Shown here: one piece after another, positions 12,839 through 50,770 of the stretch | Position numbering within the stretch: position 1 is the stretch's first letter | Layout: every line of letters starts with the position of its first letter | Assembly: GCA_021234155.1 (NCBI GenBank) | Contig: JAJEKV010000046.1 | Span: 7,693,012-7,757,011, forward strand | DNA from: Isoetes taiwanensis | Taxonomy: Eukaryota; Streptophyta; Lycopodiopsida; Isoetales; Isoetaceae | Direction of reading: 5' to 3' | DNA: 64,000 nt | Notes under the pieces: generated by a model | Databases searched by the model: none | The model's input: the letters and a program-made list of their open reading frames with translations, nothing else | Told to the model about the DNA's origin: nothing | Program-made: the position numbers and the translations under genes

Positions 12839-12919
12839 TCATCGATCGATACCAAGCACTTGATTGTATATGTACAACAAGTGCTTGCACGTGAATTCTC
12901 TAATCCTTTCCATGTGGAT
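12839..12919 (-). pseudogene. SWIM zinc finger, 3' half of a DDE transposase gene
   Basis: Read on the minus strand from the G2 insertion point: HMERIREFTCKHLLYIYNQ, then a stop at 12839. This supplies the second half (CxH) of a SWIM zinc finger, whose first half (ECSCPDFI) lies 13 kb away at 25986-26080, directly across G2. The reading frame runs through the target site without a shift once G2 is ignored. SWIM fingers follow the catalytic domain in MULE-type transposases and bind DNA or protein. This is therefore the 3' end of the gene at 25986-28450. Confidence 0.8.
12915..12919. repeat. Left target-site duplication of G2 (TGGAT)
   Basis: TGGAT directly left of the LTR edge TGTGACG and again directly right of the other LTR at 25986-25990. 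A 5-bp duplication is the rule for Ty3/gypsy integrase. Confidence 0.9.
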
Positions 12920-14504: not shown

Positions 14505-14516
14505 TTCTCCCTCCTT
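14505..14516 (-). other. Polypurine tract of G2
   Basis: Minus-strand AAGGAGGGAGAA directly before the 3' LTR. This is the plus-strand primer for reverse transcription and confirms the element's orientation. Confidence 0.85.
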
Positions 14517-15129: not shown

Positions 15130-15275
15130 TACCACGATCGCTGGGTTGATAGCATCGTTGATGGTGCGGCCTTGAGATTCGCGCATGAAACCGGATAATG
15201 TTTGTCAAGGTCTATCTTCATCACCCACGTAGCATCTTCAACTGGTAAGTGTTTCCACTTAACTAAGTATTGCAA
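15130..15275 (-). pseudogene. Chromodomain of G2 integrase
   Basis: Minus strand from about 15275 reads QYLVKWKHLPVEDATW, followed by DLDKHYP, the core of a retroelement chromodomain. It is separated from the integrase C-terminus by a frameshift. In characterised chromoviruses this domain reads histone H3 methyl-lysine and directs integration into heterochromatin. Here it shares an element with an H3 fold (ORF-A). Confidence 0.85.
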
Positions 15276-15289
15276 CATTTGAGTCCTTC

Positions 15290-16420
15290 CGTTTGTTTGT
15301 AAGCTCGGCCAAGAAGAGCTTCATGCACTATTTCGAAGTTGCTTTTTTCTCGCCATTTCTAGGGAGGGCTGGGGTCTCCAAAACCTCCTCTCGATCAGGG
15401 GTGTGTTGCTTGAGAAGACTCAATGGAAAGACTTTATGGATCTTCAAACGGGGCCGTAAATCCAAGCGATATGCCTGCTCTCCAACACGGTCAATAATTT
15501 TGAACGGTCCAGCCCATCTGGGTGCCAACTTTTTACAGTTACCAATCTTAAGCTTGGCTTGTTTCACCTTAATCTTAAGCCAAACCGATTCACCCACCTG
15601 GAAATTTGCGGGGTTCTCAGGTTTGTCGGCCACACTTTTTCCACGATCATCGCGTCGCTAATAAATAATCACTTAACTTCTTCGACCAAAGACTCAAGAT
15701 CTCTAAGAGGAGTTGTTGAGAAACCTCTACTTTAGAGACGGGTTATGCCATGTATCTGGGGTAAGGCATTGATAGCCATAATTTATCATAAAGGGGACAT
15801 CCCGAAGATTCCTCGCTTCATGTCCGTTATAAGCAAACTCAATCGATATATGTAGTCACCCATTATGCATTGCTTACTCCACACATAACTTCTTAGCATA
15901 TCCTCTATAATAACATTGGTAATGCGTCCGGCCCCGACCATCCGCTTTGAGGATGATATGTTGTACTCATAGCAAGCTTGGTCCGATGGTGGCAAAGAAA
16001 TCTTTCCAAAATGCACTTACAAATTTGGGATCCCTATCCCACACAATTACCGTGGCATCCCGTAATCAAGATTTCCTTGGCTTAACAAAGAGAGCAAGAT
16101 CATAGGCGGTATCCGTGGGTACGACATGGCAAGAAATGAGCCATCTTTTGACAATTTGTCGCACCACAACCATTAAGGCATCATATCCCCAGAGAGTCCT
16201 TGAAGGCCCACAATGAAATCCATGGTTATTACTTCCCATTTGGCATTTGGCACATCCAGAGGTTGCAACTCGCCTGGAATCCGTAACTGCTCCGCTTTTG
16301 TTTGCTGGCATACCTGACACTGCCTAATGTATTTGGCAATTTCCTTTTTCATGGAAGGCCGTAAATAATCGAACGAATTTTAAAGTAGGTTTTCATAAAC
16401 CCGCTGCGGTGTCCAGCCTA
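15290..16420 (-). pseudogene. Integrase of G2
   Basis: Pieces of the integrase remain in three frames: the zinc-binding N-terminus and start of the core (about 16066-16420, with KANKSGA-like and CAKCQMGSNN remnants), the core end (15786-16016, IIEDMLRSYVW) and a well preserved C-terminal GPY/F module (15328-15633, KLAPRWAGPFKIIDRVG, KIHKVFPLSLLK). Integrase joins the cDNA to host DNA. Deletions and frameshifts remove the continuous DDE core, so this copy is dead. Directly followed by the chromodomain. Confidence 0.85.
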
Positions 16421-17960
16421 TAGGGCTATTGTGTGTGTCATGAAGAATGAGCTTGCATCCTCAAGTCTCCGCACACACAACTTATCTTTATAATATAATA
16501 AGTTGCCCTCCTTCTTATATGCACTAAAAGCCTCACGCTCTCGATCCGCGGCGAAGCCGCCCTTAGCCAAATTGTCCCAAATGTCACAGAACTCTGGATC
16601 GGTGGCCAAGGTCTGCTCTATGCGTTTCCCAAACTCACTGGTGAGTGTAGAAATGGCATTACAATGGGTTCGGGTCACCAAGGAATGTCGTGATAAAGCA
16701 TCCGCAACCACATTGTGCTTGCCAGGCTTATACATAATCTCAAAATCATACTCCTCGAGAAATTCCATCCATCTCCTTTGACGGAGGTTGAGATTGGGCT
16801 GGGTGGATAAATAACGGAGACTTTGGTGATCCGTATCCAACTGGAATCTTCTTCCAAGAAGGTAGTGTCTCCATATCCGCAGGGCACGGACTACGGCTAA
16901 CAGTTCCTGATCATGGGTGGGATATCGTTGCTCTATCTCATTCATCTTCTTTGAGTCGTAAGCAATTACCCTCCCCTCCCTGATAGGGGACCCCACCGTG
17001 GCAATTTTACCGCATCCGCCGCCACTAGCTTATCCTGTTCCGGATCGGGTAATGTGAGAACTGGTGCTGATGTTAGGGCATCTTTAAGCTGCTGGAAACT
17101 CTGCTGAACTTTCGTCTTCCAATGGTCCATCCAATCCTTCACCTTCTCATGCTTTGTGAGATTTGTAAAAGGAGCTGCAATCTTCGCGAAATCCTTTACA
17201 AATTTTCGATAGTAGCCTGCTAACCCCAAGAAACTCCGGACTCCTAAACATTCCCCGAATAGCCATTCCCTTACGGCCTCTATCTTTATGGGTCTCAGAG
17301 CAATTCCCCTCATGGAAATGATATGGCCTAAATAATCAACCTTCTGAGTGGCTTAACTTGCACTTAGAGAACTTGGCATAGAGTTGATGACGTCTCAGCT
17401 TTTGTAGGGCCAATCTAAGATGTCTCTCATGTTCTTCAAGGGTCTTAGTGTAGATGAGAATGTCGTCGAAGAAGATAACAACAAAATCATCCAAGTATTG
17501 TCGGAAGACATCATTCATTAGTCGATAAACATTGTCGGGCATTAGTTAATCCAAAAGGCATAACCAGAATTCATAATGCCCATACCTAGTGCGTAAAAGC
17601 GGATTTATGGATGTCCTCCTCCTTGATCCTTATCTGATGGTATCCCGAGCTTAAGATCAATCTTTTGAGAAATACTTAGCCCCTTGTAACTGATCCATTA
17701 GGTCATCCGCCTCTAGGCAAAGCATAGCGATTCTTGATGGTATGCTTGTTAAGTTGCCGGTAATCAATACACATCCTCGAAGGAGCAGCCCTTTTTCTTA
17801 ACAAAGAGAATAGGGGCCTAAAAAGGCTAAACACTAGGTCGGATGAAACCTAGGTTTAATAGCTCTTGAAGTTGCTTCTTAAGTTCTGCCAATTCTGGAG
17901 GACTCATACGGTACGGAGCCTTGCTGATAGGCTTGGTACCTGGTTCTAAAGCTATTTCAC
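16418..17960 (-). pseudogene. Reverse transcriptase and RNase H of G2
   Basis: The RT palm is seen at 17336-17542 with the catalytic FFDDILIYT motif followed by [14 protein letters not shown]. The thumb/connection is at 16966-17313 ([20 protein letters not shown]). RNase H is at 16418-16996 ([42 protein letters not shown]). Typical Ty3/gypsy order. The fingers region (17560-17960) is fragmented by stops. The frames change at about 17320 and 16970, so no enzyme could be made. Confidence 0.93.
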
Positions 17961-18179
17961 ATTCCACCCCTCTAAAAGGAGGAAGCTTCTGAATCTCATC
18001 CGAAAAAGATCACCAAATTCATGGAGAAGATTAGCAATCCCTCCGGGAGGGGGCCGACATTTGTTTTGCTTAGCATCCGACTCGATGGAAGCAAGCATAA
18101 CGATGCAAAGGAGCTTTTCCTTGTGTATAGCTTTATCTAACTGCCTGATGGACATAGACTGCAGGATAGGGTTGAGAGG

Positions 18180-18620
18180 TTCACCTTTAACAGTTACGCG
18201 AGCTCCATTGGTTGCATTGAAGGTAACTTCTCTCTCTCAGCCTATGTTCGCTTTTATGGATGCCGTGAATTCCATACCAACAATGAGGTCATATTTGCCA
18301 ATATCCATCAATTCAAGACCTAAAGCAACCGGTGCACCCGGGAGTTGCATGTTGAGATTGATGCGACGCACCATGGGTATGCCCTCGACTTTACCATCGG
18401 CTAGAGTAATGTGTCTCGGACGGACCTCAATGTTTCTAGACGAAGACATGGGCCATCCTAGGAGAAGCAAAATTATGTGTACTTCCCCGATCCATAAGAA
18501 TTACAAAAGGCTTTTGTCTATTTGGCCTATGGTAGAAATAACAGCAAGCTGATTTTCAGCATTGCCGCTTATAGCCGCAAGGATATGAGACGACTCATGA
18601 ATGTAATCGGAGCTTCCTCC
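18180..18620 (-). pseudogene. Protease of G2 with altered active site
   Basis: Retroviral-type aspartic protease. The minus strand reads ILMDRGSTHNFASPR around 18460-18500 and later MDIGKYDLIVGMEF (18237-18470), matching the protease of G3 (42.5-42.8 kb). The catalytic triplet, DTG in G3, reads DRG here (18481-18492), so the enzyme would be inactive even without the frameshifts. In this family it would cut the Gag-Pol polyprotein. Confidence 0.8.
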
Positions 18621-19520
18621 TCGATGTGTTGTGTTGCTTCGAGATCATCCTAGCCGAGGTCGGCCATGGCCAACTGGGCAGTACAAGGCGGACATAAGGG
18701 CAGTTCTCGCATAAAGTGCCCCGCCTCATACACCGTAGCATGCCTTATCCCCGGGCGGAGCTGTTCACGGGCCTCTTTAGGAATGGACTGTGAAGAGGTT
18801 CAACTTCCTTTACCGCATTGTTCTCGCTTTATCCGGGCGTAAGCTAAAGGCGATTTTCCCCGCCCCGGGCGCCATAAGAGTTCTCACTGAGAGGGTCCCG
18901 GACTTGGCGAGCGGGTTTGTAAGGTGTGGACGCCGCGGGTCGCGCAGTAAGGCGCAGGACGGATACCGGGTTCTTTGGCGTGTCCTCCTCGAGGCTCAAT
19001 GCTTTAGCCTCGCCTCGCAGAATCGATTTTGGGTCTAACCATGGCCTTAACCCCTCAATATAGCCTTCCCACGCTCTTTTTCTCATTCATACCAGGTACA
19101 TACAACCTCAGGCGATAAACTCATCCGTAAGCCCAAGACGGACATACTCTTTCGCTTCCAACCCGTAAAAAGTCCGATCTGTTGGCATTTGTGTGCACGG
19201 GCACATAATGCGATTTGAAGGCCTTGGCAAACTTTCTCAAGTTGCATCCGCCTCCTCGCCCAAATGCTTGGCTCGCATAGCCCTTCCACCAAATACGGCA
19301 GCTCCTCGTAAGGTTGGTGGTGGCAACCTTTCTCAGATCTTTCTCTCGCCATTCCAGAAGACTTCCCAAACTCCTTCATCTCATCCAACCAGACTCCGGC
19401 GCTTAGGTAGCTTCGGATTTCCCATCAAACCGGGCCAATTTCCTATTCTTCCATATACTGCGATATAGTAGACAACCGCCTTACGGCACTTTTTGTCTCG
19501 GCGCTTTGCATGGTCACCAC
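18620..19520 (-). pseudogene. Gag of G2
   Basis: Gag capsid signature in several frames: a WWKGY-like Trp segment, FAKAFKSHYVPVHTNANR (19121-19369), then WEGYIEGLRPW (18844-19086), and a degraded CCHC knuckle near 18700-18760 (GHFMRELPLCP). Order and spacing fit Ty3/gypsy Gag directly upstream of protease. Single-base frameshifts at several places leave no frame longer than about 100 codons. Confidence 0.85.
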
Positions 19521-20044
19521 GATACCGATGAACCGTAAGATACTAAGTGGTTGATCGTGAGGAAGTGGCACTATCCTTAGAGGAACTTTCGGTAACGCTT
19601 TTAGCATGAGGCCTCCTCCTGCGTGTGTACGTGACTAGCTCCAGTGGGGAGATGGTCATGCAGTGTGTGTGGACTCGGTGGTAGTGAGGTAACTCCCGGT
19701 CCATCCTCCCGGGTTTGTTAGTGTGGGTTGGCATGCAATACATAGGTTCGTAATTCGCCTAACCGCTTTTCATTAACATCGCCTCGCTCAGAGTCACCAC
19801 CGGGCGTTGGAGGGTGTCCGCCAAGCGGCGCTTCGCACCGCCTATATCGAGCATTCATGGAAGCATAAGCAGCACGCATAATAACATACAATTCTATTTA
19901 GATAACAATTGCCGATGTAAAGTGACAAGAAAAAGTACAAATAGAAACTGATGTTTCATTTCATTCAAGTTGAGTACAACAACAAGTTGATTGGTACATG
20001 GGTTGGCACAGAAGGAGGTATTATACAGTGGAAGTTTTAAACTT
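19521..20044 (-). other. Spacer between ORF-C and gag in G2
   Basis: No coding segment recognised. Short open frames on both strands look random. Confidence 0.5.
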
Positions 20045-20559
20045 CTATCGGCACACAACGTAACAACAACAAAAACACATAACTTGAGGGACCAAGCCTA
20101 GGGGTTCGCAAAGGGGTACAGGATCGAGTAGCGGACACTCTCCCGCACAGCCCTTAACGAAGCTTGTAGCGTGCTCCCGTGCTTGGACAATCACTGGTTG
20201 GTATTCCCATGTTGGGCTAACAATAAGAAGATTGAAAAGCCTTCGCAAAGCATAGAAGAGTTGCCATAGGTGGTCATTGGCGTCCTCAAAAGCCTCGTGC
20301 CTGCTCATACTCCAATAGTCCCAGGTACGGCACAGGGTCAACTTCAGGTCCTCAAAAGCTCTGTCCCTAAGGATGTTAACTATCTCCAACCCTTTGTCAG
20401 CATCATAGGGTTCTCCTGGTGGCGGGGGTTCCATCTCATAGCCTTCATCCCATTCGGGATATTCGCCATATCTCTGGCCATAGTCCTGCTTTGGCGGCCC
20501 GGGATCATCCCTTCTGATCATGTCGGTAATCCTCTTCTCATATTCCCAAAGGGTCTCTT
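20045..20559 (-). CDS. G2 accessory ORF-C, unknown
   Basis: The minus strand is open from a strong splice-acceptor-like site (TTGTCTTGCAG ending at 20560) through MIRRDDPGPPKQDYG to a stop at 20045. The sequence is acidic and proline-rich at first (YEMEPPPPGEP), then has a compact helical-looking part (DLKLTLCRTWDYW, WQLFYALRRLFNLL) and a Cys-rich end. The acceptor suggests that it is a downstream exon of the ORF-B transcript, with an intron of about 0.2 kb, but I could not fix the donor. I recognise no domain. Confidence 0.45.
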
Positions 20560-20786
20560 CTGCAAGACAATTGAAATGAATGTAGAGGGTTGTGTAGTTT
20601 TGTTATAGATCAAACTTCAATAACCAGCAACACATGATAGAAGGAATAATTTTCAATTGTATTCATAAAGATAGTCCTTACATTCGATGAAAAGAGAGAT
20701 GTATCATATTATAAAGTGGCTAAAGAATTTGCCAATGCAAAATTCCACAATCATACGCAATACAAAAATGCGTAGTACAATTAGTT

Positions 20787-22183
20787 TTAAGAGCTAGGTC
20801 CTCCCTCTTCATCCGTAGGCCGAGGGGGTGGTGGAGGCGGTCGGTGTCGCAGCAGAGTCACCCCGGGGTCTACTGTAGCAGCCGCAATGGATGCAACCTC
20901 CGGTGGGTAGGCAACGGCTAATGGGGCTGCCGTAAGGAGCTTCATGCTCATCCAGGGTGCGATGTCCTGACCTAAGGCCGTCAGGGCAAGATCCCGTCGC
21001 ACGAGTACATAAGTAAACGTACGGTAGGGGAGCTTCTTGTGCCCGGTCAGCGTGGAGAGAGCACGGAGGGCCCACCATGAAGCTTCAGCCTCCGGCCCCA
21101 AATCCCGGGCTATAAAAAGGACTTGCCCGTGTCGAAAGGCTGACAAAAAGAAACGGGTAAGGTGGTTGCCCGATACCTTCCCTTGCGGGGTCTCTGATGT
21201 GGCCACCTCCTTATCCAAATCCATGGAAACCTCCTCTTCCTTAAGTTCCTGCTGCTCCTCCTTCACATGTGCAGGATTATGATATAAATCTTCTCCCTCG
21301 TCATCTGACCCGGAGGGAACCTCAACCATATTGATATTCGGGACGTGAGGTCCCATAGCCGTGAAGGCATCTGGTGAGGGCTGTGAGGCCGGCTCCTGCA
21401 TCACGAAGTCCCGAAGACGTAGTAGAATCTCAGCCGGCTCTATGGTCTCTTGACGGAACTGGAGCAGCTGCTGCACCTCCGGAGGAAGCTCAATAGAAGT
21501 GAAGTCGATGAAGTCATCCATGCAATACTCTGCAAGCTCGTAAAGCACATGGTCTTTACGCTTGCGTCTAAATCCGGCCATCATGTGATAAGTCCAGATA
21601 ATATCATCCAAGAGTAGATATTCTTGCCCTTGGTGATAAATAACTGGAAGGGCATCCAGCCCTGACAAGCCTACGGCTTGCTCACGGCGCGGAGGCAGCT
21701 CTTCCGCTAATTGCTTCCAACGGGCGAAGTCGCCCATGCCTATGTGTTCGTCTTCCCCTCCTCGAAGACTCGTGCAGCTTTGCCTTTCTACAGTGCAAGG
21801 TTTCATCCTCACATATTGGTCCATGAGGATGGCTAGGCAAAGGCAACCTCAAGGTATTGCCGACCTCGATGCCGCATTAACGGCGTGTGTTTGCCCCATC
21901 TGAGCTTCCCCTTCAAAGACATCAGACGCATGGGTGTCTCCCCTAGCATCTCCGGGACTACCTCCCCTGTGATACAAAGTGGGGAGGATCCCCAAGAGGG
22001 ATACATGTGAGGGAGCATCTCCTCCATGTAGAAGTCTAAAAATCCTGGCCAGTAACGGGTGCCTCTGCATGTTAGCAAGGAGGTCCAGTACCGCGCAGAG
22101 CAAAGGTCGCAGCAGGTCGAAAGGGACTTATGGATCCCATTGCTCCCGCCATGGTACCAGCGATAAGGTCGGCCGGTCGCCAT
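20787..22183 (-). CDS. G2 accessory ORF-B, unknown, largely intact
   Basis: The ATG at 22183 (MATGRPYRWYHGG) follows a CT-rich leader and a TATTTAAG box about 110 nt upstream. The first ~117 codons end at 21833. After an apparent one-base shift a 345-codon frame (21824-20787) carries on. It contains a Leu-rich part (EVQQLLQFRQETIEPAEILLR), a long acidic segment (SDDEGEDLYH, EEQQELKEEEVSMDLDKE), a part with ALRALSTLTGHKKLPYRTF and a proline run near the C-terminus. No known domain is recognised. A 1-kb open frame stands out in an element whose gag-pol is riddled with indels. It could be an element-specific accessory protein or a captured host gene. Confidence 0.55.
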
Positions 22184-22291
22184 GGCGCTTAAAAAGGAGG
22201 AGAGAGGAAGAAGAACAAACGTAAATGTGAAATGAAGTTTAAAAGTTCTTTTTATTTGAGGTGATGTCAAAGATTCTTTCATATTAAATTA

Positions 22292-22378: not shown

Positions 22379-23602
22379 CTAAGGATGCTCCCCCCGAATC
22401 CTACGGGTGAGGGCTAAATCCTTAGGCATTATGGTTACCCTCTTTGCGTGGATCGCGCAAAGATTGGCGTCACCAAAAAGTGCCACCAAATAGGCTTCAG
22501 CAGCCTCTTGGAGCGCCAAAATAGCAAAGGTTTGAAAACGGAGGTCGGTCTTGAACGGGCCAAGCACGATCTCGCACCTGCCTCCCGGAAGGGTAGCCCA
22601 TCGGGTTGTAGTAGACCTCGAACTTGCGGATTTCCCAAGAAGGCCACGGCACGGGTCGGCACCGGATGAGGTTTCCTTTGTGGAGCGGGTTTTGCAGGCG
22701 GCCCCTTCGGTGCTGGCACCGTCTTAGCCCCAACAGTCGGTCGGGAGCTATCCACCTGCTGCTGTCTCCGACTGGAGCTGGTATTCTTGCCAAAAGCCCC
22801 GACAGTCTTTAGTTTCTCCTTGTATTGACTGCCGGTCTTTCGGGCTAAACCCTTCCTCCGGTGCTTAATGGTCACATGTTACGCCGGGGGTTGGGCCGAC
22901 CCACCCCCGATTGCCCTCGGTCCTGCTGGTTCAGGTAGGTCCTGAGATCCCTCTCCTCTGTTCAAGCTTCTCCGTTCCTCAGGACTCTCCTCGGATCTTC
23001 CCGAATCGAAGGCAAAATGTTGGGTTGCGCTTGTGAAAGCTTCGGCCTGTTGTTGGCCCATGAGACCCATATCGATCTGTATGGTCGTCAGATAATCTAT
23101 GCTGATATCGGGGATTTCTCCCCAAATAAAACTGTGGTTATCCTCGTCCCAACGGTATGGGGGAACCTCAATTGCCATGCCATCGATAACGGCAAAGCCG
23201 CCCCCGAGGTACTGTATTCTCTCTTCCCTAGCCGCCAGATCGCCAGCTCCAATCTCCCGATGGTCGCCTTCCTTGGCCAAGCCTCGATACGATCGTCCGC
23301 CCACGATGTCCTCCCCCCCTGTATGCCCTTCCCGCTTGGGGGATAGAATTTAATGAGCATCATGACCATGTCGTTGCTCGACAATGGTGTAGGAGAGTCG
23401 GGCTAAGATTCAAAGGATCGTGAATGGCTCGAGAAATGATAGATAGGATAGGGGATCCTATCGCTATTCTCAAACCCGCTTACTAGCTCATCTAGGAGTA
23501 TGTCAATGAAGGCCGGGTCTCAGAGCCATGTACCGGGCTTATCATGGCATAAATCTCCACTATGCTCAAAGTAGAAGGGTCCGGCGCCTTGGTATTCGCC
23601 AT
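22379..23602 (-). pseudogene. G2 accessory ORF-A: unknown N-terminal domain plus histone H3 fold
   Basis: From the ATG at 23602 (MANTKAPDPSTLSIVEIYAM) several frames together encode about 210 residues of unknown type (for example FAVIDGMAIEVPPYRWDEDN, LTTIQIDMGLMGQQQAEAF). A basic Lys/Arg/Ser/Pro-rich tail follows (HRRKGLARKTGSQYKEK to RKPH), then a histone H3 fold. The fold's RYRP...EIRKY and LPF segments sit in shifted frames, but the last 62 codons are clean: [46 protein letters not shown], stop at 22379. Loop 1 has the canonical H3 length, so it is not typical CENH3. The tail is unlike the host H3 tail. A TAA between the N-terminal part and the tail, plus at least two frameshifts, break this copy. 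It might be one fusion protein or two adjacent ORFs. The H3 identity is certain; its role in the element is unknown. Confidence 0.88.
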
Positions 23603-24383: not shown

Positions 24384-24395
24384 GGCTCGATACCA
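24384..24395 (-). other. Primer-binding site of G2
   Basis: Minus-strand TGGTATCGAGCC next to the 5' LTR. It equals the initiator-tRNA-Met PBS apart from one missing base, the same variant as in G1. Confidence 0.75.
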
Positions 24396-24396
24396 T

Positions 24397-25985
24397 CGCG
24401 GACGCCCTGTAATATATATCGACCCTACCGTGATATACATACGGGACTTTTTTTCCTCCCATGGCGACCATCGCGCCATGAGCGAGTGGCCCTCCATCTA
24501 ACCCGGCCGCCTCACGAGAGACGCCAGTGAAGGACACTGAGGGGTCATTCGCCCACGCCGATGGGCTTTCACGCCATGGAAGCATGAATACAAGGGTTAG
24601 CACACAAAGATAAATCACATATAAATAACCACCACGAAGGGTGGCATATCCATCCAAATACCAACGGCAAAGAATATGCATCTAAGACTAAGAAAACACC
24701 CAAAACCCGTGTTCTACCCGGTTCGACTCTAGTGGGGAGCGACCGATCGGCCGGGTCTCGGAGATCGGGCAGACCAAATCTTGGCATGGCGCTATCGGGC
24801 ATAGAACATCGGGCTAGGGTTGTCCACTCCATCCGCCCCCTCCCGTGCACACTTTGCAGATGGGTCGATTCACGCTTATGGCTTCGCTTATAGCCTTCCT
24901 AGGAGACGCAGCTCTAGGGATCACCCTTTGAGTCTACTCCAAAGTTCATGACACTGGTCCGATGAGGCAGGTCGGGGAGGCATCCCCTTCCAGGATCACA
25001 GTGGTGTCGTGGGTGAGCTAGAGAATACGTGCGCGCATCAGCGACCCCTCGTGATCCGCACCCAACTTACTCACCCTAATTCTACTCAAAGTGCATGGTG
25101 CCCCATACGGGTCACACCACTACACCCAGGGAGTGTCAGACCCATACCCGGCCCTCCACATGACCGGCTATCAGGCCTAGCCCACTGTAGGAGTCTCAGG
25201 AGCCTTTTATGCTCGTGCAAGACCCCACCCCCTACTTCACCACTGTGTCCCTTGTCTGGTGCTAAGCCGCACCATAGCCTATGACCCGGTGGGCTCTTGC
25301 GACAAAGCCTAAAACTAGTAGGGTGTTAAAGGACTACTAGGAGCATTCTATACTCAAGCTCAGAGGCCCCTACCCCCCTGTTAATCCCTGTTTACAAGAA
25401 ACTACTAAACTAACTCATAGAGACATCGACCATTCCATACAGAGCATCATTCGTAATTGAAAAATATTTCTAATTACCAAAGAAGGGTTAATCTCACCCA
25501 AAACCAATCAGAAAAGAATACTAGAGTATTATTCTACAATTTGCAAGTTATCTACTACTAACCAGAGTTTCGGCTGGACCCGTTGTCAAGGGGTGCTTCC
25601 ATGGTCTTTGTCTTGGGGTAGCAAAATGTAGAGAGGGTGTCTTGGCGACCGGGAACTAATAGCAATCGCTTCGAAAGCCACCGCTCCTCCCGGGCGCTTT
25701 CTTTGGGTCGAAATTGGGATGATATGAGGATGGCGCTTCCCTTTGGTGGCCTAGTTTAGCAATCCTCATGCTAGCCACCCGGGTCATGCCAAATGGCTCC
25801 TTCCCACTATGGATTGACTTAATCACATGTCTTTAGATAATTATCCTTTATAATCTGGTTAACATAGCTAATTAAATCCATTGTGGCCAACCCCCCCTAG
25901 GTTATCATACCCCAGGTGGCGTACCTATATCGAGTGACGTGTTCAATATTTATACGTACACCGTATAAATACTTGGAACGTCACA
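24397..25985 (-). repeat. 5' LTR of G2
   Basis: About 1589 bp, partner of 12920-14504. Its inner edge is damaged (CGCGGACGCCC instead of TGTGACGCCCC). Its outer edge is GGAACGTCACA followed by the TSD TGGAT. Confidence 0.93.
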
Positions 25986-25990
25986 TGGAT
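25986..25990. repeat. Right target-site duplication of G2 (TGGAT)
   Basis: Matches 12915-12919 exactly. Confidence 0.9.
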
Positions 25991-37302: not shown

Positions 37303-37900
37303 TAACTTCTTATATAAGGGCAGGGATGGAGGGCAGGGAATCCCCCAGCATGAGAGATTATGCCAGTGCTGTCACATGCAGATAGTAGAAGATGAACACC
37401 ATGCTCTGCAGGAGTGTCCGACACATGCACACATCCGAGCAGCTCATGCCGATCTCAGATGCTCTGAGATAGCAATTCATCAACTACTGGCTTCGCCAAT
37501 GGTTGTACGTCTCGCGTCCTACATTCTGCAAATCTCCACCGTCAGGGAGTCCCTCACAGCACAGGGAATTTGAGCGCCCAGATAGGGACTCTGAACGCCT
37601 ACTACAAGGGTTTTTCCTCCCACTTGGGGGGTTTTTTCGTGCCAGTGGTAGAGACACATTGTACAGGGTTTCTATGGTTTTCTCTTATGTTTGGATACTT
37701 TCCGATATATTGTATTAACCGTCTCATAGACCAGTTGGCCTACGTGGACGTTAAAATATACTTCCTTCCTTCCTTATATAAGACAACGAATAGAGCAACA
37801 CGCAAGTTGCAGGACACTGAATCGTTGCTCTGTTTTTGTTTTGCCAATTTCTATGTTGTAGGCACTGGAGGTCGAGGAAGCTACCGGCTTTGGCCTAAAC

Positions 37901-38654
37901 TGATATGGCACTAGCTTGGGCGCGTGGCTCAGAGAAAGGATTTGCAGGAACAAACACAGAGGCAAGGGTCTTTCATTAACTTTGATTGTATAGCCTTAGG
38001 CGTTTTTAAGTTATAAATTACAATAGGGAACCATTGAAACGAAAAAGGGTTATAAAGGAACCATTGAAATTTAAAGCAATCGTTTAAAACAACGAATTAG
38101 TACAAATGTTAAATGTGTTAACAAAAAAATAACAAACAAAAGGGCAAACGCGACCTGCGGCAGACGGAATTGCCGGATCAGCTATTCTTTAGCTGAAAAA
38201 GGTCCGATATGGCCGAAATTAGTTCCAGAGGCCTTGTAGCAGGCAGAATTGTTGAAAAAGGCTATCGGAATTAGCTTAAGATGAAAAAGGTCAATCCAAA
38301 TATAGATCACAAACACCTTTTAGAATAGCATAAAAGAGATCGATCTGCAGAATTGTAGCAGCCGTAGGTGTCTAGCATGAGATAGAAGCCTATCTACAGT
38401 AGATCTCTTGATAAATTGTGGTTGAATTAAGTGTTTCCCTTAGCTCTAGAGAGTTCCAGAGAATCCCAGAGAGGCTATCCAGCTGGTTAGCAGACTCTCA
38501 GAATTGGGAGGAATTTGAGCTTAGACTTGCCGTGTTTGCAAATTGGAGCCCAGTTGGGTGGATAAGTTGTGCCGAGAGACTTGATCTGGAGTTCTAGGTC
38601 GATTGGATTAACCGTGTTTGTTAGTTTTGCAGAGAGAAAGGATCGTTTGTATCA
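37901..38654 (+). repeat. 5' LTR of the gag-only element
   Basis: 754 bp. Aligns end to end with 40288-41040 with scattered substitutions and few indels. Confidence 0.93.
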
Positions 38655-40235: not shown

Positions 40236-40287
40236 TACTTCCTAAGGCAGATGATCGAGGACGATCAGCCTTGAGAAGGGAGGGAAT

Positions 40288-41040
40288 TGATACGGCACTA
40301 GCTTGGGGGCGTGGCTCAGAGAAGGGATTTGCAGGAACAAACACAGAGGCAAGGGTCTTTCATTAACTTTGATTGTATAGCCTTAGGCGTTTTTAAGTTA
40401 TAAATTACAATAGGGAACCATTGAAACGAAAAAGGGTTATAAAGGAACCTTGAAATTTAAAGCAACCGTTTAAAACAACGAATTAGTACAAATGTTAAAT
40501 GTGTTAACAAAAAAATAACAAACAAAAGGGCAAATGCGACCTGCGGCAGGCGGAATTGCCGGTTCAGCTATTCTTTAGCTGAAAAAGGTCCGATATGGCC
40601 GAAATTAGTTCCTAAGGCCTTGTAGCAGGCCGAATTGTTGAAAAAGGCTATCGGAATTAGCTTAAGATGAAAAAGGTAAATCCAAATATAGATCACAAAC
40701 ACCTTTTAGAATAGCATAAAAGAGATCGATCTGCATAATTGTAGCAGCCGTAGGTGTCTAGCATGAGATAGAAGCCTGTCTACAGTAGATCTCTTGATAA
40801 ATTGTGGTTGAATTAAGTGTTTCCCTTAGCTCTAGAGAGTTCCAGATAATCCCAGATAGGCTATCCAGCTGGTTAGCAGACTCTCAGAATTGGGAGGAAT
40901 TTGAGCTTAGACTTGCCGTGTTTGCAAATCAGAGCCAGGTTGGGTGGATAAGTTGTGCCGAGAGACTTGATCTGGAGTTCCATGTCGATTGGATTAACCG
41001 TGTTTGTTAGTTTTGCAGACATGAAGGATCGTTTGTATCA
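40288..41040 (+). repeat. 3' LTR of the gag-only element
   Basis: 753 bp, preceded by the polypurine tract and followed by the TSD TAAAC. Confidence 0.93.
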
Positions 41041-41789: not shown

Positions 41790-43123
41790 GAACACAAGTG
41801 CCATATGATGCAACAGTTCTATAGGTTGGAGCAGGGCAATAAGACAGTCCAGAAGTACACTGAAGAGTTCATGAGGCTGAGGCTCTATGTGCCAAAATTA
41901 AGCGAAAGACATGCAGTAGAGGGGTACATTGAAGGCTTGAACGAGGAGATCAGGAAGCTGGTGAGAGCAATAAACCCCAAGACAGTGTCAGAAGCAGAGT
42001 CCAAGGCAGTGAGCTTATAAGGAACAGGACCTCAAGCAAATGGGCCGAGGCAACAGTATTATCAGGACAAGGGGAAGGCTACAGGAAGCTACAGCCCAAG
42101 AGCAACAAGCCCAGCAGCTGCCAGACCGGTACAACGCAAACTATGGGAAGCAAGAAAATGCAAATTTTGGCAAGCAGGATAAGAAGCAGGTCCGCTTCAA
42201 GGACAAGGAGCAAGGAGGTGGCTCAAACTACTCCAAAGCAGTAAAGCAGTTCTTACAGTCCATCCCCAAGGAGAAGAGGCAGGAATATATTGAAAAGCAG
42301 TTGTGCTTCAGGTGCTTCCAGCCAGGACATCAGACACATAATTGCCCATTTGTGATGAATGCAGCGTTAGCAGAGCTAGGAGGATGGGAGACACCCACAG
42401 ACATCGACGAAGAAGATGCTCCCAACTACATCCAGGGTGAGTGCCACATCTTTGCCGCTATTGACTCCGAGAATGCTGAAAGTCAGTACCAAGTCATTTC
42501 GACGATTGGGAAGGCCCGAGCCAAGCCCTTCATAGTGCTGATGGACACAGGGAGTACCCACAATTTTGCTTCGCCAAGGATGGTAGAGATGTTGAAGCTG
42601 AAGCCTTTGAATTCCAAGCCTAGACCAATTGTGTTGGCAAGTGGGGCAATCCGACACATAGCAGGGAAGAGGATCAACTTCAGTATAGACTTGCCATGTA
42701 TCAATGTTGGAATAGGAACAGAAGTGATGAACATAGGCAAGTACGATTTGATCATAGGCATGGAATATCTTGGACCGGCTGGAGCCGTAATTGATTGTCG
42801 GGAGCAAAAAGTAACCTTAACGACGCCAGAGGGCAAGGTCATTGAGATATTTGGTAAAGAAGTCACCCTAATCATGCAATGCATGTATAGTAAGAAGCTA
42901 CTTAAATGCATAAGGAATGAGCAAGTGGCCTATTTCTTTAAACTCAAAGTTGACAAGCAAGACGCAGAGGAAGACAAAGAGGCCAAAGAGTTTAGCAAGC
43001 TCCCAAAGCCGATAGCCAAGTTGGTGAAGGAATTCCATGATTTGTTCCCAGATGAGATTAAGCAACTTCCACCTTACAGAGGAGTCGAGTGTGAAATAGC
43101 ACTTGAGCCAGGAACGAAGCCAA
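41790..43123 (+). pseudogene. Gag and protease of chromovirus G3
   Basis: Gag starts inside the capsid domain (QQFYRLEQGNKTVQKYTEEF, VEGYIEGLNEEI) and reads on after a stop and frame change at about 42020. The knuckle CFRCFQPGHQTHNCP follows. The protease has an intact catalytic DTG (VLMDTGSTHNFASPRM, 42535-42580) and GKYDLIIGMEYL. The frame then runs into the RT linker (FHDLFPDEIKQLPPYRGVEC) and ends abruptly at 43123, where a TIR transposon begins. The missing RT half is found on the opposite strand at 47929. No 5' LTR remains, because the left side joins a hAT fragment. Confidence 0.9.
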
Positions 43124-44250
43124 CACACTGACCCCAATTTTTTGTCCACAATTATTTTTTACTTGTACGGAAGTGTTGTTTTATGCCAAAAACAACACCA
43201 AAATGGCCCCAAAAGTCCACGTGGCCCGTTTATCCGGATTTGCACAAAGAGACAGTGGTTTTTTTGCAGAAAAATTCCACTGTGGTTTTTTTGGCACCCT
43301 TTTTTTTTGGTCAACGTGTCTTTTTTTTCACTATTGTTTTTCGCAAAATTTTGTCAACGTGTGGTTTTTTTCACGAGCCATATGTTGTTGTTCATCAAAA
43401 TAACACGCGTTGGTTTAGATATTACTACACGTGTAAACTTAAATTACAACGTCAAAGTAAGATGGTTTTTAAAAAAAATTACATGTCATTTAACCAAGTA
43501 CCACCTGTTACTTAAATCTAGTTATTGTTTTTAATGCTACTAACTATTGTTTTTCTAAAATAAAGACATGTAAAAAAGCACTATTAATACACATAGAAAA
43601 AGAAAGATGATGTTTCCAATGTGTCTTTAGGCCAATGTTTTTTATGAATAGAATAGAACCATGCGTTGTTTATCTTTAAAATAGCACGCGTAGGTTTTAA
43701 CTTTACTACACCTGAAAAACTAAATTACAACACTAGAAATAAAGGACTACAAAGAAAAAGCGGCTGTAGGAAATGAACAAATGATGTTTTCAAGTGTTCT
43801 TTTTCTAAATATAGACACGTTGTTTCAAGTGTTGTTTTTGCAAAAATTAAAAAAATCATACATAGCCTTTTTTTATTTACGAAACACTACATGTGTTATT
43901 GAAATCTAGCTATTGTTTTCCTAAAATAAGGACGTGTAAAAAGTAATATTATAACACGTAGAAAAAACGTGAGTTTCTAATGTGGTTGTTTAATTAATGA
44001 GATATTGACACATGGCATGCTTTAGAAATAAAAAAATATTATAATTACATGTAGGAAAATCAATTGTTGTTTCTAATGGCTTATAACTAATTTATAATTT
44101 AAACCATTTGCTCCCACTTAGACCACTTTCCACTTTCATTTTTTGCTACTGTTTATATTTATTAAAGAATTCATAAATTTGACAACATAATTGTTGATTT
44201 TGAAGGAGCAGGGGCCAATATAAATCAGACTTATCATGTCTCATCAAATG
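43124..44250. mobile_element. TIR transposon X, left part
   Basis: Starts CACACTGACCCCAA directly after the G3 protease-RT linker; the first 26 bp recur with three changes at 47930-47955. The interior is T/A-rich with many GTGGTTTTT-type words and no coding frame. About 43500-43620 and 43885-43985 form a diverged direct repeat (ATCTAGxTATTGTTTT, CTAAAATAAxGACxTGTAAAAA). The 3-bp target duplication CAA and a CAC-type start would fit the CACTA (CMC) superfamily. The right limit of this piece is not resolved. Confidence 0.5.
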
Positions 44251-45239: not shown

Positions 45240-46440
45240 GTTCGGTGTCGACTACTTGGGTGACGAGCCGACCCGTGCATTGCTCCATGAATTGGGGGTA
45301 CTGCTTCTCCAAATCTGATTGTAGTACTACGTAACGTCTTCCACAGGTAAGTGCGTCCATTTCACTAGGTATTGGAGAAATTGGAATCTTCTTGTCTTCT
45401 TATAGATCCTGTCAAGAAGAACCTCTGGGACGATTTCAAGCTGGTTGTCCGTCATTTCCAGTAACTCAGTTGTCTCCAATACTTCCTCTGGATTAGGAGT
45501 GTGCCTCTTCAGGAGATTTACATGGAAGACCCTATGGATTTTGAGATGTGCTGGCAGGTCTAACTTGTAGGATTGGCTACCTACTCTTTTGGTTATCCTA
45601 AATGGCCCAGCCCATCTTGGAGCAAGCTTCTTGCGATTCTTAGATCGCGGAGCTTTGCCTACTTGACTTTGATCTTCAACTATACATTGTCTCCCACCTG
45701 AAATTCCCTTACCGTTATGTGTTTATCGGCTATGCTTTTCTACCTACTTCTTTTGTTAGCGTGGTATCCTCATTACCTCTTCCACTAAAATTTCTTTGCA
45801 TGTCGGAGATAACATCTGCTAGGAGATTTCCACTTTTGACACTAGATTGTGCCATGTATCTGGGGTAAGACACTAATACCCATAATTAATCATGAAAAGA
45901 GACATCTGGGATGACTCCTGCTTGGTGCTGTTGTAGGCAAACTCCACTAAGTGGATGAAATCCTCCCACTTAGACTGCTTGTTCCACACACAATTCCTTA
46001 GCATGTCTTCAATGATCCAGTTGGTTCGCTCCGTCTGACCATCTGTCTGCAATTGGTATGTTGTGCTCATAGAGAGCTTCGTCTGAATGGTGGTAAACAA
46101 TTCCTGCCAGAATGCACTCATAAATTTAGAGTCTCTATCCGAGATTATTTCCCTCGGCATCTCGTGAAGTCTAAAGATCTCTTTGGTGAACAATACGGCA
46201 GTGTCCAATGCCATGTCTGTGGTCCTACACGGCACGAAATGTGCCATCTTCGACAACTTGTCCACCACCATCATTAGAGCATCCTTGCCTCTTACTGTCC
46301 TCGGCAGTCCTGTGATGAAATCCATACTTATGACTTTCCATTGGCAATGGCTCTAAGGCTCCTGGAATTCGGAGTTGCTCCGCTTTTGTCTGCTGGCATA
46401 ACTGGCACTCCTGAATGTACCTGGCTATTTGCTTCTTCAT
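45240..46440 (-). pseudogene. Integrase and chromodomain of G3
   Basis: Minus strand. The zinc-binding part is YIQECQLCQQTKAEQLRIPG (46225-46440). The catalytic core is MDFITGLPRTVRGKDALM, VDKLSKMAHFVP, ISDRDSKFMS, LQTDGQTERTNWIIEDMLRN (45873-46325), with Asp residues in place. The C-terminal GPY/F module is at about 45590-45700 (KLAPRWAGPF), and a chromodomain QYLVKWTHLPVEDVT lies at about 45340-45395. Integrase inserts cDNA and the chromodomain targets chromatin. Several stops and one-base shifts separate the parts. Confidence 0.88.
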
Positions 46441-46446
46441 GTCGGG

Positions 46447-47929
46447 TCAGAAGTAGCTGCTTCTGACCTTGAAATAGGTCTTCATGAACCCTGCATGCCC
46501 GGCTATGGGACTATTGTGTATATCGTGGAGTATCAACTTCCTTACTCCCGACGATTCTGGTACACACAATTTATTCTTGTGATATAGCAGGTTACCCTCC
46601 TTCTTATAATGCTTGAAGGTCTCCCTTTCCTTATCTGCTCTTGCCTTTATAGAAAGGCTTGCCCATACTTCTTTAAAGTCGTCGTCTGATGGCAACGTCT
46701 CTTCAATCCTTTTGCCATACTCACTTGTGAGAGTCGATATGGCGTTGCAATGGATTTTTGTCTTTAATGGCCTCCTGGAGAGCGCATCTGCGACTACATT
46801 TAGCTTGCCGGGCTTGTAGACTATTTCGAAGTCGTACTCTTCGTGAAACCCCATCCACCTCCTTTGCCTCAAGTTCAGGAGTGGTTGCGTGAAGATGTAC
46901 TGGAGGCTTTGATGATCTGTATCTAGTTGGAACTTTCTTCCCAACAAGTAGTATCTCCAGATTCTCAAGGCCCTCACAATGGCCAAAAGCTCTTGGTCAT
47001 GAGTCGGGTAGCGTTGTTCTGCATCATTCATCTTCTTGGAGTCGTATGTGACTACCCTTCCCTCCTGCATGAGGACTGCTCCTGTTGCTAGCTTGCTAGC
47101 ATCTGTTGCTACAAGCTTATCCTTGCTTGGATCCGGCAAGACTAAGACTGGCGCGGGTGTTAAAGCTTCCTTCAACGTCTCAAATGCTGCATGGGCCTTC
47201 CTTTGCCAATGACTCGCCCAATCTTTTATCTTTTCTGCTTTGGTGAGATCTGTCAATGGAGCTGCCACCTTTGCAAAGTTCTTAACGAACTTCCTATAAT
47301 ACCCTGCTAAGCCGAGGAAGCTCCTCACTTCATGGATGTTCTTTGGTGTCGACCAATCAATTACCGCTTCAATCTTTGCAGGGCCGGTGGAGATCCCTTC
47401 CGTTGTGATTACATGCCCCAAGTACTCCACCCTTTCTGTCGCAAAGTGACACTTGGATAGCTTCACATAAAGCTGATGCCTCCTCAACTTTTCAAGTACC
47501 TTCCTCAAGTGCTGGGCATGCTCCTCTAAGGATTTGCTGTAAACTAGAATGTCATCAAAGAAAACTATGATGAATGCATCTAGGAATTCGGGGAAACCAT
47601 CATTCATGAGCTTCATGAAAGTTGCTGGAACGTTGGACAATTCAAAAGGCATCACTGTGAACTCATAATGGCCATATCTCGTCCTGAATGCAGTCTTATG
47701 GATGTCCTCTTCCTTGATTCTGATCTAGTGATAGCCTGACCTCAAATCTATCTTGGAGAAGACCTTTGCTCCCTACAGCTGGTCCATCAAATCATCTGAT
47801 CGAGGTAGAGCATATTTGTTCTTGATGGTGTGCTAGGTCTATTAAACCCTAGGTCTAGCAACTCCTGCAATTGCTTCTTCAATTCCGTCAACTCCTGAGG
47901 TGACATTCTGTAGGGCACCTTACTTGTTG
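46447..47929 (-). pseudogene. Reverse transcriptase and RNase H of G3
   Basis: The minus strand starts at 47929 with the linker ...[18 protein letters not shown], which continues exactly where the protease half stops at 43123. A long open frame (47655-46447, 402 codons) has [49 protein letters not shown], RNase [27 protein letters not shown] and ADALSRR. The fingers region 47660-47929 contains stops. Best preserved pol in the window. Confidence 0.93.
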
Positions 47930-48480
47930 CACACTCACCCCAAGTTTTGGTCCACTGTCGAAAAGTATAGTTTTCTTAGGTCCACATGTTCTTTATTCAG
48001 AGATTTCAAAAAAACCTACATGTAGATCTGTGGAGGTGTGGTTTTACTAACTAACGGTATTGTTTTTTAAGTGGACAAGGAACGTCCACTGTTATTTTTT
48101 TAAGGAGCTGTGGTTTTTGTTTTTTTAGGGACAGTGGTTTTAAGGAGGTATGTTTTTGTCAAAAAGCGTGTTTTTTTCTTTTAAGGTAGTGGTGTTTTTA
48201 AGGAGGTGTAGTTTTTGGAGGTGTGGTTTATAAGTAAGTGTAGTTTTTTTTTTTTTTTTTAAGATTTTGTGGTCTTTGTTTTTTAGGGCGTGTGGTTTTT
48301 AAGGAGGTATGTTTTTTGTTAAAAGGCTGTGATTTTTCTTTTGAGGTGGTGATGTTTCTAAGGAGGTGTAGTATTTGGAGGTGCGGTTTATAAGTAAGTG
48401 TAGTTTTTAAGGAGGTTTTTTCTAAATGATGTGGGGTGTGGTATTTTAAGGTTCTTTATAGCCAATTTTGTAAGCATCAT
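47930..48480. mobile_element. TIR transposon X, right part (inverted)
   Basis: Begins CACACTCACCCCAAG at 47930, next to TTG (the complement of the CAA target duplication). The interior is full of GTGGTTTTT, AAGGAGGTxTG and GGAGGTGTGG words, reminiscent of subterminal repeats in CACTA elements. No coding frame. Both TIR copies now point the same way on the plus strand. Confidence 0.5.
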
Positions 48481-49134: not shown

Positions 49135-50770
49135 ATGGACAAAGTTTCTGTCCACTTGGCTCAAACATGCCACCTAGGCTCAAACATGCCAAGGTGGCTC
49201 AAACATGCCACCAAGGTGGCTCCAACATGCCACGCGGGCTCTAACATGCCATGCAAGCTCCAATATGCCAAGGTGGCACAAATATGCCACGTGGGCTCCA
49301 CCATGGCACCTAGGCTCCAACATGCCAAGGTGGCTCACAACATGCCACCTAGGCTTAAATATGCCAAGTTGGCTCAAACATGCCACCTAGGCTCCAACAT
49401 GCCACCGTGGCTCTAACATGCCACCTAGGCTCAAACATGCCACGTGGGCTCCAACATGCCATCTAGGCTCCAACATGCCAAGGTGGCTCACAACATGCCA
49501 CCTAGGCTCCAACATGAAAGGTGGCTCAAACATGCCAAATGGGCTTCAACATGCCACCTAGGCTCCAACATGCCAAGGTGGCTCAAACATGCCACGTGGA
49601 CTCCAACATGCCACCTAGGCTCCAACATGCCACGTAGGCTCCAACATGTCATCTAGGCTCCAACATGCCAAGGTGTCTCAAACATGCCATGTGGGCTCCA
49701 ACATGCCACCTAGGCTCCAACATGCCAAGGTGTCTCAAACATGCCACGTGGGCTCCAACATGCCTAGGTGGCTATAACATGCCACCTAGGCTCAAACATG
49801 CCAAGGTGGCTCCAACATGTCACCTAGGCTCCAACATGACAAAATGGCTCAAACATGCCACCTAGGCTCCAACGTGCTCAAACATGCCACACGGGCTCCA
49901 ACATGCCACATATGCTCCAACTTGCCAAGGTGGCTCAAATATGCCACGTGGGCTCCAACATGCCACCTAGGCTCCAACATTCCTAGGCACCCACATGCCA
50001 CCTAGGCTCAAAAATGCCAAGGTGGCTCAAACATGCCAAGGTGGCTCAAACATGCTAAAAAATGCCAAGGTGGCTCAAACATGTCAAGGTGGCTCAAACA
50101 TGTCACGCGGGCTCCAACATGCCACCTGGGCTCCAACATGCCACCTAGGCTCCAACATGCCAAGGTGGCTCAACCATACCACCTAGGCCCTAACATGCCA
50201 AGGTGTCTCAAACATGCCATGTGGGCTCCAACATGCCACCTAGGCTCCAACATGCCAAGGTGGCTCAAGCATGCCACCTAGGCTCAAACATGCCAAGGTG
50301 GCTCAAACATGCCACCTAGGCTCCAACATGCCTCCTTGGCTCCAACATGCCAAGGTGGCTCAAGCATGCCACCTATGCACCAACATGCCACCTAGGCTCA
50401 AACATGTCAAGGTGGCTCAAACGTGCCACCGGGCTCCAACATGCCACCTAGGCTCCAACATGCCAAGGTGGCTCAAGCATGCCACGTGGGCTCCCAACAT
50501 GCCAAGGTGGCTCAAGCATGCCACGTAGGCTCCAACATGCCAAGGTGCCTCAAACATTCCATGTGGGCTCCAACATACCACCTAGGTTCCAACATGCGAA
50601 GGTGGCTCAAACATGCCATCTAGGCTCCAACATGACAAGGTGGCTCAAACATCAACATGCCAAGGTGGCTCACGCATGCCAAGGTGGCTCAGGCATGCCT
50701 AGGCTCCTAACATGCCAAGGTTGCTCATGCATGCCACCTAGGCTCAAGGCATGCCACCTAGGCACTCCAA
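49135..50770. repeat. Minisatellite with ~19/38-bp units (CATGCCACCTAGGCTC)
   Basis: About 80 degenerate units, mainly of two types alternating: AACATGCCACCTAGGCTC and AACATGCCAAGGTGGCTC, with CACGTGGGCTC variants. The ACC-TAGG/AAGG-TGG pair can base-pair with itself. Long open frames in it are repeat shadows (CHLGSNMPRWLKH). An inverted copy lies at 53005-53295. Confidence 0.95.

Follow-up and report, generated by a model that had tools for sequence, protein, structure and literature searches.

The window analysed here, a 64,000-nucleotide stretch of the Isoetes taiwanensis genome (contig JAJEKV010000046.1, positions 7,693,012 to 7,757,011), carries on its minus strand a long terminal repeat (LTR) retrotransposon, G2, whose LTR pair, 5-bp target-site duplication (TSD) ATCCA, primer binding site (PBS) and polypurine tract (PPT) were all recovered, in agreement with an initial annotation that had described it as a complete element. 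Three additional open reading frames (ORFs), called ORF-A, ORF-B and ORF-C in the following, precede gag, and ORF-A ends in a histone H3 fold. Comparison of many copies indicates that this H3 fold is a standing gene of the whole retrotransposon lineage and not one captured fragment. Taken as a whole, the data are best explained, and we hold this with good confidence, by a chromovirus lineage whose ORF-A is an H3 fusion that was captured once and kept functional. The features of the window copy are given below in element orientation (PR, protease; RT, reverse transcriptase; RH, RNase H; INT, integrase; L016 and L020 are sister copies found elsewhere in the genome).

25986..25990, minus strand: target-site duplication ATCCA, 5' side of the element
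24396..25985, minus strand: 5' LTR (TGTGACGTTCC...), matched by the LTR of L016 at 86.9%
24384..24395, minus strand: primer binding site TGGTATCGAGCC
22960..23602, minus strand: N-terminal domain of ORF-A (MANTK...), start Met at 23602, frame-broken, 3' border approximate
22665..22875, minus strand: basic tail of ORF-A (RRKGLARKTGSQYKEK...) replacing the H3 N-terminal tail, borders approximate
22382..22664, minus strand: histone H3 fold of ORF-A, 58 C-terminal codons clean (22555-22382), alphaN-alpha1 in another frame
20787..22282, minus strand: ORF-B remnants in two frames, homologues without Pfam match
20045..20602, minus strand: ORF-C region, in which a splice-acceptor-like TTGCAG precedes AAGAGACC, homologues without Pfam match
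15139..19871, minus strand: gag-PR-RT-RH-INT-chromodomain region, frame-broken, assigned from Pfam matches of L020 and of two fragments of the window
14505..14516, minus strand: polypurine tract AAGGAGGGAGAA
12920..14504, minus strand: 3' LTR (TGTGGCGTTCC...CGTCACA)
12915..12919, minus strand: target-site duplication ATCCA, 3' side

The initial annotation had placed the C-terminal fold of H3 in an ORF of G2, behind a basic tail and an N-terminal part of about 210 residues. The fold is indeed present at 22555-22382, where 58 residues are 97% identical to copy L016, and both preceding parts could be located, but they do not form an open ORF: the frame 23602-22379 holds 12 stops, the H3 fold is split across two frames, and the basic tail and N-terminal part likewise lie in other frames. 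The window ORF-A resembles that of L016, from which 55 comparable codons differ with a non-synonymous divergence (dN) of 0.008 and a synonymous divergence (dS) of 0.39. The two LTRs of G2 are 89.6% identical (1,627 alignment columns, 85 of them gap columns) and, since their differences are clustered indels, part of the frame breakage may be due to assembly error rather than decay; the quality of the assembly in repeats is uncertain. The PBS is one base shorter than TGGTATCAGAGCC. Within a high-copy lineage of Ty3/gypsy chromoviruses, G2 is best regarded as a copy that has decayed or was poorly assembled.

ORF-A across the genome

Searches were performed on the Isoetes taiwanensis assembly of 1,658,258,908 bp in 1,110 contigs. 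The Pfam Histone model returned 8,705 first-look candidates, the best 150 of which were scored and all passed. The best 15 of these 150 (164-165 bits) resemble host genes, and all eight that were read are canonical H3. Twenty sister copies were fetched from the other 135, chosen for high score and long frames. An open frame of more than 300 codons with the H3 fold is present in 19 of them (L023 is broken), and in 17 ORF-A is complete from its start Met, with 411-459 codons, the N-terminal end not being in frame in L025 and L026. Upstream of ORF-A, a constant layout with an LTR start or a PBS was found in 19 of the 20 copies, L018 having neither (LTR start in 18, PBS-like sequence in 15), and 13 carry the exact PBS TGGTATCAGAGC, which we take to be of the initiator-tRNA-Met type. 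The distance from the PBS to the start of ORF-A is 0.60-0.76 kb in the 11 copies measured. All four sister copies scanned gave a Pfam Histone (PF00125) match of 138-147 bits at a cut-off of 26.4.

Genome-wide, the nine-codon element motif DANLCAIHA has 1,269 exact matches, compared to none for the reversed control, and the case considered in the initial annotation, that no other copy carries the H3 segment, is thereby dismissed. Both this count and the Pfam scores greatly exceed what chance would give. The corresponding host motif DTNLCAIHA has 52 matches, a number that may include mutated copies of the element, so that element-type and host-type H3 motifs stand at about 24 to 1. Because the fetched copies had been chosen by their H3, two less biased samples were drawn. 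Ten copies, taken as 2.4-kb slices among about 100 matches listed of the 1,269, all contained an ORF-A match, and in seven the leader with the LTR end or PBS fell within the slice. The other sample started from gag: a motif from its N-terminus has 342 matches, and the 23 listed for contigs up to C501 were all used, without regard to H3, the lists of H3-motif and gag-motif matches being compared by hand. ORF-A lies upstream in 20 of these 23. The exact H3 motif was found on the same strand 2.4-2.8 kb upstream in 10 cases and 5.4-5.8 kb upstream in two, which we infer to belong to the same element, and slices upstream of the remaining 11 revealed a diverged ORF-A in eight. As to the three misses, the slice of L041 contains LTR and leader and thus lies too far upstream for a decision, that of L044 matches the spacer between ORF-A and ORF-B of sister copies, and that of L046 has no match to any of the 20 fetched loci. 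The H3 segment thus lies repeatedly between LTR/PBS and gag, in many copies, which is the arrangement the initial annotation had proposed to look for.

The ORF-A protein and its history

All ORF-A types begin with a domain of some 200 residues; a variable, coil- or Q-rich linker then leads to the basic tail, and the complete H3 fold comes last. In 22 element copies the fold aligns without gaps to host H3 at 94 of 94 positions and is 83-89% identical to it, which falls short of the near-identity to a host gene that had been considered initially. The change T107A and changes at S86, S87 and E105 occur in all 22 copies, V89I and a changed G102 in 21 each, and I124L in 19. Invariant in 17 ORF-As are N108-M120, D123 and L126-G132, residues that we assume to serve the H3-H3' and H3-H4 interfaces and DNA contacts. 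The best match of the L016 ORF-A in the PDB is Histone H3.3 (7ux9 chain E, 184.7 bits), presumably from a plant.

The basic tail contains 24-31% lysine or arginine, and 20 of 22 tails have R at position 36. The canonical H3 tail (ARTKQTARKS...TGGVKKPHR) was not found in it, and none of the 22 tails scores clearly above its own shuffles against the host H3 tail (lowest 24/500), which bears out the earlier view that the two are unlike. The N-terminal domain of L016 is 29-36% identical to that of the other 16 copies, and an AlphaFold2 model of it reached a mean pLDDT (predicted local distance difference test) of 81 and a pTM (predicted template modelling score) of 0.74. Overall, four sequence types of ORF-A, a to d, can be distinguished (e.g., L018, L014, L016 and L027), of which the H3-fold tree supports the first two well (98/98 for a, 100/99 for b) and the last two less strongly (90/88 for c, 83/83 for c and d together).

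A nucleotide tree separates the 22 element sequences from five host H3 sequences of this genome by a branch with 100/99 support. Between element and host H3 the proportion of synonymous differences (pS) is saturated, at 0.87-0.93 in five copies. Synonymous sites are also saturated between subfamilies, where the proportion of non-synonymous differences (pN) in H3 is near 0.1, i.e., about 90% of the protein is conserved. By codon position, 43, 17 and 91 of 94 sites of the fold vary among the 22 copies. The median pN/pS of the fold is 0.12, with a maximum of 0.18 (165 pairs, 19 copies), and the N-terminal domain, tail and linker of the same 19 copies have medians of 0.49, 0.48 and 0.63 (170, 168 and 166 pairs, respectively); because pS is saturated, all these medians are upper bounds. 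In the close pair L018/L017 the dN/dS ratio (omega) is 0.03 for H3, 0.10 for the N-terminal domain, 0.22 for the linker and 0.51 for the tail. The H3 fold is also unbroken in three of the ten motif-sampled copies (L029, L036 and L038), for which three pairs show dN 0.019 and dS 0.51-0.63 (e.g., L029/L016 with dS 0.58 and L036/L022 with dS 0.51), and two pairs with L038 show dN 0.059-0.062 and dS 2.2-3.3 (L038/L018: dN 0.059, dS 2.2). The purifying selection among copies for which the initial annotation had suggested a search is thus found, and these values indicate that the H3 fold is under strong purifying selection and has been so for a very long time, which suggests a use by the element in manipulating chromatin.

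The shared H3 residues, the split in the tree and the homologous N-terminal domain and tail support one old capture of H3, long before the present subfamilies split, the source being most likely a host-type H3 gene. When subfamilies are compared, RT has a median pS of 0.42-0.49 (no type c pairs), gag of 0.51-0.63 and the H3 fold of 0.68-0.93, and L009 (type a) and L028 (type b) have LTRs with 90.8% identity although their ORF-A types differ deeply. On these grounds the ORF-A types seem to predate the backbones in which they now sit. This mismatch is probably due to recombination, i.e., old ORF-A types might have been exchanged between younger element backbones.

The rest of the element and of the window

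The order in better copies is LTR, PBS, ORF-A, ORF-B, ORF-C and gag-PR-RT-RH-INT with a chromodomain. LTRs measure 1.5-1.7 kb in 10 copies and have the ends TGTGACG...CGTCACA. Pfam domains for gag, protease, RT, RNase H and integrase follow in that order along L020, and the chromodomain (PF00385; 32.9 bits, cut-off 25.1) is located at the integrase C-terminus, residues 633-681 of the L020 ORF. The pol of highest identity among 120 listed of 7,971 matches is P0137, 81% identical over 98% of the query; this full-length gag-pol with chromodomain comes from the assembly of a public dataset and represents a relative from a different sample.

ORF-B reaches 469 codons and ORF-C about 150, and the homologous stretches of both that were scanned have no Pfam match. 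ORF-C is likewise under purifying selection (e.g., dN 0.042 and dS 0.41 between L013 and L028). At its start lies a conserved TTGCAG acceptor-like site (L012, L015, L017, L018, L025 and L027; TTACAG in L022) without a nearby ATG, and because of this conserved site and the missing start codon ORF-C is probably reached by splicing. In the spacer between the ORF-A stop and the ORF-B start, L014 and L028 have GTGCCAAAAAGTATAAA...AGGGTTTCATTT in common just before ORF-B, and L012 has the same stretch with one change in AGGGTTT. This stretch resembles a plant TATA box and telo-box, and ORF-B may have its own promoter. Two copies depart from the full layout. L020 has kept ORF-A and long gag-pol frames and lacks ORF-B and ORF-C. 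L024 has its ORF-A and ORF-B enclosed by LTR starts that lie 5.8 kb from each other, and the interval holds no gag-pol frame (LTR-ORF-A-ORF-B-LTR at L024:590-8000 in element orientation, LTRs 94.6% identical); this copy is possibly a non-autonomous derivative that still keeps the H3 gene.

Elsewhere in the window, other chromovirus-like fragments occur at 45330-47939 (minus strand) and 41793-43125 (plus strand), with 66-78% identity to L020 in pol and 48-51% in gag-PR; a comparison within the window found no ORF-A/H3 match with either. Tandem arrays of 19 bp (GGCTCCAACATGCCACGTA and a reverse-complement-like relative) extend over 49158-50736 and 53015-53295, about 2.3 kb apart, and a pair of direct repeats at 37898-38342 and 40285-40728 (94-95% identical, spacing about 2.39 kb) possibly represents the LTRs of a short element.

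Possible roles and known counterparts

The initial annotation had regarded a passive capture of a host gene as the simpler alternative. LTR elements do transduce genes (PMC7264820, PMC13317346), and many copies of ORF-A are broken, as would fit a piece of host H3 that was transduced once and hitch-hikes in a recent amplification. We now consider this very improbable and reject it, as omega is far below 1: synonymous sites are saturated between subfamilies with a conserved protein, variation follows codon position, ORF-A is retained in L020 even though this copy lacks ORF-B and ORF-C, and most gag-bearing copies carry it. The saturated pS between element and host argues against gene conversion from host H3 as a source of the codon pattern. 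As a candidate class, a transduced gene fragment, with one or few copies and no selection, was likewise discarded in view of the 1,269 motif matches, the 20 of 23 gag-bearing copies and the median pN/pS of 0.12. Still more remote is a host H3 or CENH3 gene family merely surrounded by LTR elements; host H3 genes do exist in this genome, but the order and spacing of LTR, PBS and ORF-A are constant in dispersed copies and the well-supported branch parts element from host H3. CENH3 has a longer loop 1 in its histone fold, and no longer loop 1 was seen in the 94 ungapped columns of the 22 copies. As to the role of the maintained H3 fusion, its fold is likely to pair with H4, since none of 17 copies departs from the others at the core residues of the H3-H3' and H3-H4 interfaces, and we consider it rather probable that the ORF-A protein, paired with host H4, becomes part of nucleosomes as an H3 variant supplied by the element, with the N-terminal domain and basic tail perhaps bringing it to element nucleic acid. 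The ORF-A protein could instead act as a histone sink or chaperone decoy, its fold binding and diverting H4, ASF1, CAF-1, HIRA or the H3K9 methylation machinery. This is an unlikely but serious option: the lineage-fixed changes cluster at 86, 87, 89, 102, 105 and 107, in alpha2 if the helix borders are as we assume, and nucleosomal histones do not usually have such a long N-terminal extension. In addition, residues 87-90 are discussed as an assembly-pathway determinant for viral H3 in a review (PMC9145170). However, the H3-H3' bundle and the DNA-contact residues are conserved although a decoy would not need them. Somewhat more doubtful is a cofactor of packaging or integration, with tail and fold condensing RNA or complementary DNA (cDNA) in the particle or tethering the pre-integration complex via the integrase chromodomain. 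We therefore rank a nucleosomal variant before a decoy and a decoy before packaging, because conservation of both the interface and the DNA contacts is needed only for the first.

Several observations weigh against a functional nucleosomal variant maintained throughout the lineage, or against the breadth of the evidence for it. A single genome was searched, a choice of copies by hidden Markov model score and length of open frame is biased towards those with an intact H3 fold, and a full-length open ORF-A was found in none of the ten motif-sampled copies. The H3 tree left out three of eight host loci and contains host H3 from this genome only. The N-terminal domain has no convincing relative in the PDB or protein database, the extension of about 300 residues before the H3 fold could hinder nucleosome entry, and the tail is less constrained than the fold, as judged from its omega in the closest pair. 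Finally, an ARK[ST] motif persists in the tails of L016 and L038 and in that of the window copy, so that a K9-like context is not lost in every copy.

That the element supplies its own H3-like protein, as proposed initially, is thus upheld at the level of sequence by recurrence, diverged subfamilies and purifying selection, while the purposes suggested for it stay conjectural. As the host tail is replaced, and with it the context for methylation at H3K9/K27, tail-swapped nucleosomes on element DNA, cDNA or targets might resist H3K9-type silencing, or favour transcription or integration, a possibility we put forward tentatively. It is equally speculative to picture an element that builds its own chromatin, in which a tail-swapped H3, brought there by the N-terminal domain peculiar to the element, would yield nucleosomes on element DNA that are unable to bear the H3K9/K27 silencing marks of the host, and ORF-A cassettes would be exchanged in an arms race with silencing.

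In its LTRs, PBS, 5-bp TSD and order of gag-PR-RT-RH-INT-chromodomain the element corresponds to plant chromoviruses; it differs from them in that most fetched copies have three further ORFs ahead of gag, the first of which contains an H3 fold, and we class it as a chromovirus whose accessory gene is of a new kind. The plant LTR retrotransposons Grande, RIRE2, Retand and PvRetro13 also have additional ORFs, with a conserved extra ORF in most family copies, but mostly between pol and the 3' LTR (PMC7264820, in the part seen). A host-type domain has been fixed as an additional ORF in another gypsy lineage, the 25-kb Gypsy elements of Phalaenopsis, whose m6A (N6-methyladenosine) demethylase (2-ODD/AlkB) domain is a recent acquisition according to the title; theirs is an RNA demethylase, however, and not a histone, and the portion available of the same angiosperm survey names AlkB, G-patch, KOW, ArgoL2, B3 and possibly AIR1, but no histone (PMC9289625). 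The word "histone" is absent from the portions consulted of reviews on additional ORFs of plant retrotransposons (PMC7264820) and on gene capture by plant transposable elements (PMC13317346), and from the main texts, as far as accessible, on Isoetes taiwanensis (PMC8566536) and Isoetes sinensis (PMC10541799). Viral histones, such as H4 of bracovirus, H3 of xenomavirus and phycodnavirus and the doublets of marseilleviruses, share the conserved core fold, several with a divergent or extended tail, but are carried by double-stranded DNA (dsDNA) viruses, and "retro" does not occur in the sections seen of the review describing them (PMC9145170). Compared to canonical plant H3 and H3.3, to which the fold is so similar, the element protein has a replaced tail, the long extension and fixed changes at 86, 87, 105 and 107.

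Core histones are thus known from dsDNA viruses and, in the literature searched, not from retroelements; no described retroelement with a core histone was found there, and the initial annotation had likewise known of no family with a histone H3 domain. Here a transposon lineage carries an H3 variant as a standing gene, and has done so long enough to saturate synonymous sites. If its product does enter nucleosomes, transposable elements would be suppliers of histone variants, beyond being targets of histone-based silencing, and it would become directly testable whether they use the nucleosome itself to edit the chromatin of their host.
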